A DNA stretch of 54,306 nt from Aneurinibacillus terranovensis DSM 18919 (GTDB lineage Bacteria > Bacillota > Bacilli > Aneurinibacillales > Aneurinibacillaceae), in the NCBI RefSeq assembly GCF_000430625.1, contig NZ_AUMJ01000045.1, forward strand, positions 1 through 54,306, in the 5' to 3' direction. Shown piece after piece: positions 10,268 to 32,840 of this stretch (position 1 is its first letter; the number at the start of each line of letters is the position of its first letter). The translations under genes were made by a program, and so were the position numbers. Under the pieces are notes generated by a model. The model was not told the DNA's origin, did not search any database, and was given only the letters and a program-made list of their open reading frames with translations.

Positions 10268-10303
10268 AACAAACTCCTACCAGAAAAATGATCTGGTAGG
10301 AGT
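10268..10303 (-). terminator. Terminator of the fluoride riboswitch
   Basis: On the minus strand the 3' end of the aptamer (ACTCCTACCAG, 10293-10303) can pair with CTGGTAGGAGT (10273-10283) followed by a T-rich stretch. Folding of this hairpin competes with the aptamer's pseudoknot, so fluoride binding should allow read-through. Confidence 0.85.
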
Positions 10304-10346
10304 CATTAGCTAAAATTAGCGGTTATGGCGAACTCCATCACCTATA
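10293..10346 (-). ncRNA. Fluoride (crcB) riboswitch
   Basis: The minus strand reads GGTGATGGAGTTCGCCAT, then AACCGCTAATTTTAGC, then TAATGACTCCTACCAG, which is the crcB-motif aptamer: conserved GGxGAUGG, UUCGCCAUAACCGC and the pseudoknot UAAUGACUCCUACC. It lies 80 bases upstream of the first fluC, directly in front of a terminator, the classic transcription-control layout. Confidence 0.95.
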
Positions 10347-10357
10347 GGTTTATGCTA

Positions 10358-18120: not shown

Positions 18121-18241
18121 TCATTCCTTGTGAACGTTTAATTGGCTATTTTAGATAGTTACACTGTTCTTGAATTTAAATCATGTTCAATTGGACACTT
18201 ACCGGTTCATGAGCTATACTGAAAATACAATTTCATTGTAG

Positions 18242-18388
<147 letters not shown>

Positions 18389-18525
18389 ATTGCTGCAGGC
18401 GGGAAAGAGCCGTTTGTTTGTGTTGCCAGCGTTATTTGCACTGCCATTTTACGGCAATTCAGATAATCCGGTACACAGGCAGGTCTCCACGCAAACGTCA
18501 ACGGCAATTTGTCTTTTCACAAATA

Positions 18526-22201: not shown

Positions 22202-22256
22202 GACAGGTTATATCATTCGGGATAATCTAATAACATACAATTAAATATGCCAACTA

Positions 22257-22346
22257 TGCGGGAGCTTGGAGAACCAGGCTGAGAGGATAGCTACTCTGCT
22301 ATCGACCGTTGAACCTGAACTGGATAATGCCAGCGGAGGAAGACAT
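22257..22346 (+). ncRNA. TPP riboswitch (THI element)
   Basis: GCGGGAGCTTGGAGAACCAG, GGCTGAGAGGAT, then GACCGTTGAACCTGAACTGG and ATAATGCCAGCGGAGGAA are the conserved THI-box blocks. It precedes thiC by about 175 bases with a terminator in between, so thiamine diphosphate should end transcription. Confidence 0.97.
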
Positions 22347-22353
22347 ACAATAA

Positions 22354-24303
<1,950 letters not shown>

Positions 24304-30805: not shown

Positions 30806-30845
30806 AAATAGCCTCCAACCGTGAGATTGGAGGCTATTTTTTGTT
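30806..30845. terminator. Hairpin upstream of the CDF gene
   Basis: ATAGCCTCCAA (30808-30818) and TTGGAGGCTAT (30827-30837) form a perfect 11-bp stem with T-rich sequence on both sides. It may end HD-GYP transcription, or attenuate the CDF gene. The remaining bases to 31133 are AT-rich and hold no gene that I can support. Confidence 0.6.
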
Positions 30846-31133
30846 CTTGTATAGGGCCGTGGCTTTTTATTTTCATAAAATCACTCGCTTATAATCCGTA
30901 ATTTTGTGTAGGGTGAGTCTCATGAGGGCGTTGTATAATACCAGAATATAATTATAAAGCTTTTTTTATCTTTTTGTACATTGGAAACAGCATGTTCCCG
31001 TTACAATTATTTTAACATTCTATGGCATCTCTAATACATACAAAAACAAAGTCACAATTGATTATATAATGAAAAAAGTCCTGCAGGAAGAAATAAACGT
31101 CCCTGTTGCGAAGAAATGTGGCTGACGCCGCGG

Positions 31134-32117
31134 TTACACACTGTGCGCCAGGCCTTTTACCACGATGGTCGGATTGTCAGCGAGGGAGATTTCTTTATCG
31201 GTGGAAAAAATCCGTACAACCGGACGCTGCATATGTGTGGTAATCTGTGTGACGATCGCTTCTTCACCATTATGCAGCAACAGTTTTGTTCCCGGCGGAT
31301 AAGCTGGAACTTTTCTCACAAAAGCTTCAATAATAGATGGCAGATACGCACTCCCACTCAATGCCATGATTCTTTCAATCGCCTCATGGGGCGGCATGTG
31401 CTGAACCGAAATAAAATTTTCAAAAAGGTTGGTCACTGCGCAAATTTGGGCAAATTCAAGAAATTCTTCCCCACGAATGCCGCGCGGATATCCTTTTCCA
31501 TCCATCGTTTCATGATGCTGATAGGCAATGTGCGCGGAAAGCAAACTAATTTCCCGCATTTTTCGCAAAATAGAAAATCCCGCTTCACAATGTTTTTCCG
31601 ATTCACGCCCGTGTGCCTTGCCGATATCATGAAGCAAACAGCCGATAGCCAAATCGTGCAGCTGCAACTCGTTGTATTGTAAATGCCTGGCGACCTGCAA
31701 AGAGAGCAGTGTAACATTGACAGCATGGGCATAAGGAAATAACTCAATCGGAAGGGAGGAGGTAGGAAATAATAGAATAATTCTTCTTTGTTTGACTTCA
31801 GCTACCAATTTACTTACCATTTTTTGAATTGCTACGAGAGGAATTGGTTTATTGGATGCAACGTTTTCGTATACATCCCGGACAATTTCGATGGCATCCA
31901 TCCACGTGGGCATGTCCACCATTTCTTCCAACGTAATACCGGTAGACTCCATATCTTCCACGATTAAAGTCGATATTTTCAACTCTTTCAGCTTTTCTAA
32001 GTACACAGGATGAATTGTTCTGCCTGCCGCCAAGAGAATTCTTCGTTTTCCGTCGTAGACCGGTTTTGCCAACTCCATCTTATTCTGGTCATATTGTGAG
32101 ATATGAATCATTCGCAC
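31134..32117 (-). CDS. HD-GYP domain cyclic-di-GMP phosphodiesterase
   Basis: A 327-residue protein with an N-terminal region common in Bacillales HD-GYP proteins (DGKRRILLAAGRTIHPVYLEKL, about residues 22-43) and a C-terminal HD-GYP domain (about 125-265). The catalytic motifs are intact: LLHDIGKAHG and HHETMDGKGYPRGI (HHE-x2-DGxGYP). It should hydrolyse cyclic-di-GMP to GMP. The start is GTG 32117 (GGGTGG 6 bases upstream), with ATG 32111 as alternative. A cyclic-di-GMP-I riboswitch lies in its 5' leader. Confidence 0.93.
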   Translation of the reverse strand: MRMIHISQYDQNKMELAKPVYDGKRRILLAAGRTIHPVYLEKLKELKISTLIVEDMESTGITLEEMVDMPTWMDAIEIVRDVYENVASNKPIPLVAIQKMVSKLVAEVKQRRIILLFPTSSLPIELFPYAHAVNVTLLSLQVARHLQYNELQLHDLAIGCLLHDIGKAHGRESEKHCEAGFSILRKMREISLLSAHIAYQHHETMDGKGYPRGIRGEEFLEFAQICAVTNLFENFISVQHMPPHEAIERIMALSGSAYLPSIIEAFVRKVPAYPPGTKLLLHNGEEAIVTQITTHMQRPVVRIFSTDKEISLADNPTIVVKGLAHSV

Positions 32118-32173
32118 GTTTTTCCACCCTTTTCCCTGTCTTACTAGTATTAGTCATGTAGAACCGGACAAAT

Positions 32174-32210
32174 ATAAAAAAGTGGCTATTCAAGAAGAGA
32201 ATAGCCACCG
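32174..32210 (-). terminator. Terminator of the c-di-GMP riboswitch
   Basis: On the minus strand GTGGCTATTC (32199-32208) pairs with GAATAGCCAC-type arm 32182-32190, followed by six T residues, 57 bases before the HD-GYP start. Confidence 0.85.
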
Positions 32211-32242
32211 GTACCTTTCATACTAACAAAAAAGTATTACTT

Positions 32243-32335
32243 TTTCGGTAACCCGGCTGTCATAGTCCGCATAACCTTAGACCCGTGGCTTTGCGCCCTT
32301 ACCTTTCAGTAAGTTTGCCGTTATCGATGTAAGTA
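32243..32335 (-). ncRNA. Cyclic-di-GMP-I riboswitch (GEMM)
   Basis: On the minus strand the blocks follow the GEMM-I consensus: GGCAAACTTACTGAAAGGTA, then GGGCGCAAAGCCACGGGTCT, then AAGGTTATGCGGACTATGAC and AGCCGGGTTACCGA. The GCAAAGCC...GGGTCTAAGG element and the AGCCGGGTTACC tetraloop-receptor strand are diagnostic. It is followed by an intrinsic terminator and then by an HD-GYP gene. Confidence 0.92.
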
Positions 32336-32397
32336 TAATTTAAAGGACTGATTATTACAATCATCATACCTCGATATAGATGCAACTTCAATCACTT

Positions 32398-32801
32398 TTA
32401 CTCGAAATCAAGCATCAGATCCACCACTTCCGCATCAAATAATCTGGCACTTCTGCATCCGATGAGAAGAACTCCTAAAACGCATTCGTGGAACATAATC
32501 GGAACCCCTACGACGGATGTCAGGTTTTCCGCGAGAAGAATGGGATATTCCCGCGGGTCATCTCTACTTTTGGGCGAGAAGGAATCGAGAACAATCGGTC
32601 TTCCGGAGCGCATCACTTCCCCGGCTATCCCTTTTCCCGGCCGAAGTATGATGCGTTTATAGCGCTGATTTCGATTTCCGGATACGTATTTCCACCGAAT
32701 GGTTTAATCATTCTGATTCAAACTGGCAACGCCACAAAGTCTGCGGCAGTCAAACGTCTAAGTTCACTGAGTTCCGACTCAATATTCTCTAGACTTTCCA
32801 T
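32398..32801 (-). pseudogene. nreA: NreA-like nitrate-sensing GAF protein, broken
   Basis: ATG 32801, with GGAGGAA upstream, opens MESLENIESELSELRRLTAA (then DFVALPV), which ends at a TGA; the protein goes on in another frame (CGVASLNQND), meets a TAA near 32703, and continues as TIRWKYVSGNRNQRYKRIIL, RPGKGIAGEVMRSGRPIVLD and VVGVPIMFHECVLGVLLIG to the stop at 32398. This is the GAF domain of NreA, which reports nitrate to NreBC in staphylococci. One frameshift and one nonsense codon make it inactive. It is the last gene of the nar operon, 39 bases after narI. Confidence 0.75.
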
Positions 32802-32840
32802 TGTTTATTCCTCCAAACGTTTGACATCCTGCCGGTTCTC

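Follow-up and report, generated by a model that had tools for sequence, protein, structure and literature searches.

The Cd1 (Cdi-1-3) RNA of the flgB operon of C. difficile, which controls flagella and is a proven OFF switch, has a class I c-di-GMP aptamer and a downstream terminator that coexists with the aptamer and competes with an antiterminator built from strands of both (PMC9262584). In the ON switch pilM, the terminator is itself built with an aptamer strand (PMC9262584). The functional class I switches of C. difficile have been described as uniformly OFF (PMC6366702), and for one class I-linked gene in this species an increase of >30-fold with c-di-GMP is given (PMC6200980). In Bacillus, Bc2-Bc5 are ON (PMC6366702, PMC4759541), with Bc4 needing P1/P3 nucleotides for its terminator state (PMC4759541), and Bc1, which has two terminators and precedes mcpE, was ON in a reporter and later unresponsive (PMC11218506). 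An association of GEMM RNAs (Weinberg, Sudarsan) with DGC and PDE genes downstream of them is stated in a review (PMC12564702), and control of c-di-GMP enzymes by c-di-GMP riboswitches is said in a review to be rare (PMC6366702). In the double positive feedback of E. coli PdeL, c-di-GMP lowers the expression of an enzyme that hydrolyses it; there the enzyme itself is the transcription factor and no riboswitch is part of the circuit as reviewed (PMC12564702). In C. difficile, a GGDEF-EAL PDE gene goes down 5.1-fold at high c-di-GMP, and it is not among the riboswitch-linked genes in Table 1 of that report (PMC6200980).

The window, by which we mean the whole 54,306-nt stretch of Aneurinibacillus terranovensis DNA analysed here, carries on its minus strand a c-di-GMP-I (GEMM-I) aptamer, a 34-nt linker, an intrinsic terminator, a further 58 nt and the GTG start of an HD-GYP gene, in this order of transcription (Table 1). 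A class I aptamer with an intrinsic terminator in a Bacillota leader is common to this locus and to Bc1 and Bc3-Bc5 of Bacillus thuringiensis, and the GEMM RNAs mentioned above likewise place this class of RNA ahead of genes for c-di-GMP turnover. The coexisting downstream terminator is shared with Cd1, but the window RNA precedes an HD-GYP gene, and its antiterminator, made as in Cd1 from aptamer and terminator strands, is a predicted one. The reading that we hold to be on balance the probable one is a transcriptional c-di-GMP-I OFF riboswitch for the HD-GYP protein, with positive feedback if the enzyme is active. In a literature search confined to open-licence papers we noticed no publication on this pair of riboswitch and HD-GYP gene.

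Table 1. Features of the riboswitch leader and the HD-GYP gene, in window coordinates.
Feature	Position	Strand	Basis
Second candidate promoter, TTGTAA-17-TATACT	32332..32360	-	consensus match only; 2 nt before aptamer
Candidate promoter, TTGAAG-17-TATGAT	32363..32391	-	consensus match only; -10 ends 33 nt before aptamer
c-di-GMP-I (GEMM-I) riboswitch aptamer	32244..32329	-	Rfam RF01051, 83.9 bits, complete
Aptamer P3 5' strand, proposed antiterminator partner	32279..32290	-	predicted, MFE and centroid of 131-nt transcript
Proposed switching strand GGUACCGGUGGCU (linker end and start of terminator 5' arm)	32203..32215	-	predicted pairing with P3 5' strand
Intrinsic terminator, 11-bp stem 32181-32209 and U run	32176..32209	-	terminator search, folding
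Putative ribosome-binding site AGGGTGG	32124..32130	-	sequence
HD-GYP domain protein, 327 aa, GTG start	31134..32117	-	ORF; GTG aligns with orthologue starts

A preliminary description of this DNA had placed a GEMM-I aptamer at 32243-32335. The covariance model RF01051 recovers it at full length (model 1-87) with a slightly shorter extent, 32244-32329, at 83.9 bits (gathering cut-off 35, E 3.9e-15), a score by which a chance aptamer is ruled out. The folding energy of the aptamer sequence alone is unremarkable, with 34 of 200 shuffles as stable, and its identity therefore rests on the covariance model. In the alignment to this model GGCAAAC, GCGCAAAG and UUACCGAA match the consensus, and AGCC is present in P3 of both the consensus and the window aptamer. 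The nucleotides G20, A47 and C92 (Vc2 numbering) are contacts of the c-di-GMP-type ligand, as opposed to the cGAMP variant. We take position 20 of the window aptamer to be a G in this numbering.

The search for orthologues covered whole genomes and a named genome collection, in which the order of the source genome is represented by 15 genomes. With the weaker matches set aside as presumed paralogues, this gave 21 orthologous loci (the window, L009-L016, L067-L071 and L075-L081). A c-di-GMP-I aptamer precedes the gene in six of them: the window, L009, L010, L013, L016 and L069. None was found at a permissive threshold at L011, L012, L014, L015, L067, L068, L070 and L071, or at L075-L081, where the gathering threshold only was applied. 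In every one of the six leaders an intrinsic terminator lies between aptamer and gene and does not overlap the aptamer, the gaps measuring 34 (window), 44, 13, 47, 44 and 45 nt. Four of these loci fall in one family, L013 belongs to another order and L069 to an unplaced MAG. The alignment of aptamer, terminator and HD-GYP gene, already pointed out in the preliminary description, is thus borne out, and because the order is seen in six of the 21 orthologous loci the three elements are likely to lie on one transcript.

In a tree of 20 orthologues and three outgroup rows, three aptamer-bearing rows of one family cluster (98/98); the other two are unplaced, and a single gain of the riboswitch is not decided by this tree. 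Of 398 genomes sampled from the class, 16 have the protein at E 1e-70, and of 398 sampled from the phylum one has it, the source genome being counted in both. The 20 other orthologous loci, most of them extending about 1.5 kb per side, were screened for eight window proteins (nar genes, a GAF fragment, a CDF protein and two others), and no shared neighbourhood was found; the sole match was to an unrelated ORF in L075. The L016 locus (genome G005) keeps aptamer and terminator, and an internal deletion has apparently disrupted its HD-GYP gene. Promoter-like sites upstream of the window aptamer are no better than those of shuffled sequence (best score reached in 25%, P 0.25). The best such sites in L010, L016 and L013 lie 39, 39 and 43 nt before their aptamers, that of L013 being near-consensus (11/12 match, 0/300 shuffles).

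The encoded protein matches Pfam HD_5 (4.2e-13) and HD (7.5e-11) and NCBIfam HDIG (1.2e-8), and a profile search puts solved HD-GYP structures on top, with 5z7c, 4r8z, 4mcw and 3tm8 first. HDIGK starts at residue 163 and HHETMDGKGYP at residue 201, so that the HD diad, HDxGK and HHExxDGxGYP are all present. By alignment and counting, PmGH residues H189, H221, D222, K225, H250 and H276/H277 correspond to H131, H163, D164, K167, H176 and H201/H202. The position of PmGH D305 is occupied by N230, that of D308 by E233 and that of E185 by F127, and D183 falls on E125. Six of the eight PmGH metal ligands (H131, H163, D164, H176, H201, H202) are kept, short of the full set, and the PmGH substrate residues R314 and K317 are not kept. 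A structure model (mean pLDDT 74, pTM 0.67) gave in Foldseek four chains of Bd1817 as the best matches, with PmGH next; the query TM-scores are low (0.35-0.48) and the rmsd large, so this ranking is only a guide. The HD-GYP fold is common to all three proteins, with 17-19% identity for the window protein in the structural match. The intact catalytic motifs of the preliminary description therefore stand as far as the HD and GYP signatures go, but the PmGH metal ligand D305 is replaced by N230 and D308 by E233, and inactive Bd1817 is ranked first.

These departures bear on the strongest competing reading, in which the riboswitch is real and the protein is no phosphodiesterase but a degenerate HD-GYP receptor or scaffold for c-di-GMP, its amount being set by c-di-GMP. 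In its favour are the Foldseek ranking, since Bd1817 is an HD-GYP protein without activity (PMC4159591), the loss of the R/K substrate residues, and the position of D305, which is Asn in 16 of 20 orthologues (Asp in three, pattern not found in one), as it is in the Bd1817 alignment. Asn also stands there in all three outgroup HD-GYP proteins, and we therefore regard it as a trait of a wider group. The mutants of PmGH speak in part against such a degenerate protein: D305A lowers activity without abolishing it, and GYP, R314 and K317 mutants retain most activity, while D308A, D183A and K225A are hit like most metal-ligand mutants (PMC4159591). Seven of the eight PmGH-type ligands are common to both subfamilies, E185 being the variable one, and the predicted binuclear Y/F subfamily is naturally without it (PMC4159591), as is the window protein. 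The HD pair, both histidines of HH, K167 and a complete GYP are kept, unlike in Bd1817, which lacks the Tyr of GYP (PMC4159591), and in DvhD, which has SQ in place of HD. The protein is likely to hydrolyse c-di-GMP, and we consider the receptor or scaffold rather unlikely, if the most serious of the alternatives.

The terminator, noted earlier at 32174-32210, was found again by terminator search and folding. Its stem has an energy of -16.5 kcal/mol (z -6.6), and none of 200 shuffles is as stable. The hairpin uses no aptamer base and, with the 34-nt gap, it is a separate terminator of the Cd1 type. In folds of the growing transcript at 130 and 140 nt, where the terminator 3' arm is absent, the MFE structure pairs 32279-32290, the 5' strand of P3, with 32203-32215. 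In the 131-nt transcript, which ends at the terminator 5' arm, this antiterminator is also the centroid (MFE -36.4, 4/200 shuffles as stable). The MFE then drops from -36.4 at 140 nt to -45.1 at 150 nt, and the terminator is part of it in every transcript examined from 150 to 210 nt. Compared with Cd1, the P3 5' strand is the energetically best partner predicted for the window.

Tests against shuffled sequence support this pairing unevenly. Pairing of aptamer with downstream sequence gains 10.2 kcal/mol in the window, a value equalled by 16 of 200 shuffled arms (22/200 in L009), and the gain is small and unremarkable in the other four orthologous leaders. The predicted partner of the terminator arm varies among all six. 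The window strand duplex (-17.6 kcal/mol) is not above shuffles (arm plus 12 nt 135/1000; arm only 217/1000), nor are the duplexes over the six orthologous leaders (Fisher 0.59), and the pairing probability of the window terminator arm with the aptamer is matched by 126 of 200 shuffled arms. Duplex statistics and arm-aptamer pairing probability were therefore dropped as strong arguments for the window antiterminator.

We also compared 72 c-di-GMP-I leaders (seven of the source genome, 60 of relatives, four of orthologous loci, and L069); 71 of the 117 c-di-GMP-I matches in G000-G015 were used, chosen among the matches listed. A terminator lies within 300 nt in 55 of the 72, at 0-60 nt past the aptamer in 36, overlapping it in five and further away in 14. 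GGCU, the complement of the AGCC of P3, occurs in the 5' arm of 21 of the 36 near-aptamer terminators against 38 of 413 other terminators, and GGCUAU in 15/36 against 3/413; the comparison set, in part overlapping, comes from scanning the window and 42 loci on both strands under a slightly tighter limit on stem-loop length. The compared leaders are paralogues and not independent, so that Fisher p-values for this enrichment overstate the case. Three of the six orthologous leaders (L010, L016, L069) have no GGCU core in their terminator arms. When set against shuffled arms, the 36 arms pair better with aptamer plus linker (Stouffer p 0.002), and with the aptamer alone the value is p 0.067.

In the OFF reading, at low c-di-GMP the linker end and the terminator 5' arm would capture the P3 strand as an antiterminator, and transcription would read through into the gene. 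At high c-di-GMP the P3 strand would stay in the aptamer, locked there by the ligand, the terminator arms would pair and transcription would stop. A terminator without aptamer bases, as in Cd1, together with the predicted pairing of P3 and terminator arm, suggests that the ligand should cause termination, and c-di-GMP would then repress its own hydrolase. Should the HD-GYP protein be an active c-di-GMP hydrolase, as is usual in its class, the physiological outcome would be positive feedback, in which low stays low and high stays high, and hence bistability.

The opposite direction, with the ligand preventing the terminator and rising c-di-GMP making more hydrolase, had been put forward in the preliminary description, and would mean negative feedback and homeostasis. 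Several c-di-GMP-I switches of Bacillus are ON (PMC4759541, PMC6366702), a precedent against the OFF reading. In the predicted 157-nt fold, moreover, a second helix, in which aptamer GGGUUACC pairs with GGUACC of the linker, is present alongside the terminator, so that aptamer bases are not wholly idle when transcription is terminated. However, the window terminator needs no aptamer base, in contrast to pilM or Bc4, in which strands of the aptamer help to form the terminator state, and it is not among the five of 55 terminators that overlap their aptamer. Given the Cd1-like layout and the predicted fold we regard the ON direction as improbable and the earlier proposal as probably wrong, the direction being one that we infer. 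A terminator that is effectively constitutive although the aptamer binds its ligand, as reported for Bc1 (PMC11218506), so that expression would hardly follow c-di-GMP, has on its side the very stable hairpin and its presence in the MFE of every transcript folded from 150 to 210 nt but runs against an aptamer-terminator order kept in six orthologous loci of two orders and one unplaced MAG, and seems to us quite improbable.

The source genome holds six c-di-GMP-I RNAs besides that of the window, and family RF01051 is present in 44 of 61 genomes searched (source genome included); these switches, earlier thought uncommon, are thus common here. Behind the remaining six lie a FapA-like gene, an MCP gene in two cases, a CheX-CheW-MCP cluster, a PAS-GGDEF gene and, in one place, no clear gene. 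Chemotaxis genes therefore stand behind three of the seven leaders, and as high c-di-GMP usually turns motility off, such targets fit OFF switches. This argument is only a lean, since Bc1 before mcpE was first ON and then unresponsive (PMC11218506).

The PAS-GGDEF gene (L142, G000:C52:3369-8000, ORF 99-2081) has an intact GGDEF motif, and its c-di-GMP-I aptamer abuts the ribosome-binding site. With the HD-GYP gene of the window, a maker and a breaker of c-di-GMP thus both carry the RNA. The two might act at different levels and differ in sign or affinity, and so give a memory of the c-di-GMP state by positive feedback through RNA alone, an idea that we offer as speculative and hold to be doubtful. 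The arrangement of RNA and gene is in itself of a known kind, and the interest of the locus lies in the likely sign of the loop and in the presence, in the same genome, of a GGDEF gene that is also linked to such a riboswitch. Control of a c-di-GMP enzyme by a c-di-GMP riboswitch is described as uncommon (PMC6366702), and a case that recurs and has a simple leader is therefore convenient for testing how RNA exerts feedback on a second messenger.

Among the 60 leaders of relatives, six (L100, L103, L107, L113, L119, L124) run from the aptamer directly into a ribosome-binding site and a similar protein of 54-61 aa. Three of these proteins were scanned and have a helix-turn-helix of the HTH_Tnp_1 type; from sequence, c-di-GMP seems here to control a small DNA-binding protein. 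Two further small ORFs (L131, L140) gave no convincing family. A 200-aa HD-GYP protein, a GGDEF-EAL protein and two EAL proteins stand behind the c-di-GMP-I aptamers of L129, L095, L083 and L084.

Elsewhere in the window, an NreA/GAF-like gene between narI and the riboswitch (32398-32806, minus strand) extends across two reading frames, contains a premature stop and is, as its frames read, a decayed gene or an assembly error. Upstream of the CDF efflux gene, also on the minus strand, a promoter match (10/12) at 30980-30951 is followed about 110 nt on by a strong hairpin at 30806-30839, which was called as a plus-strand terminator; by eye, a T-rich stretch follows on the minus strand too. No Rfam family reaches its cut-off in 30806-30980 (minus strand), which is possibly an uncatalogued metal-responsive leader. 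Further riboswitches of the window are FMN (18240-18390), TPP (22249-22360, barely over its cut-off at 54.8 vs 54.3 bits) and fluoride (10290-10351).
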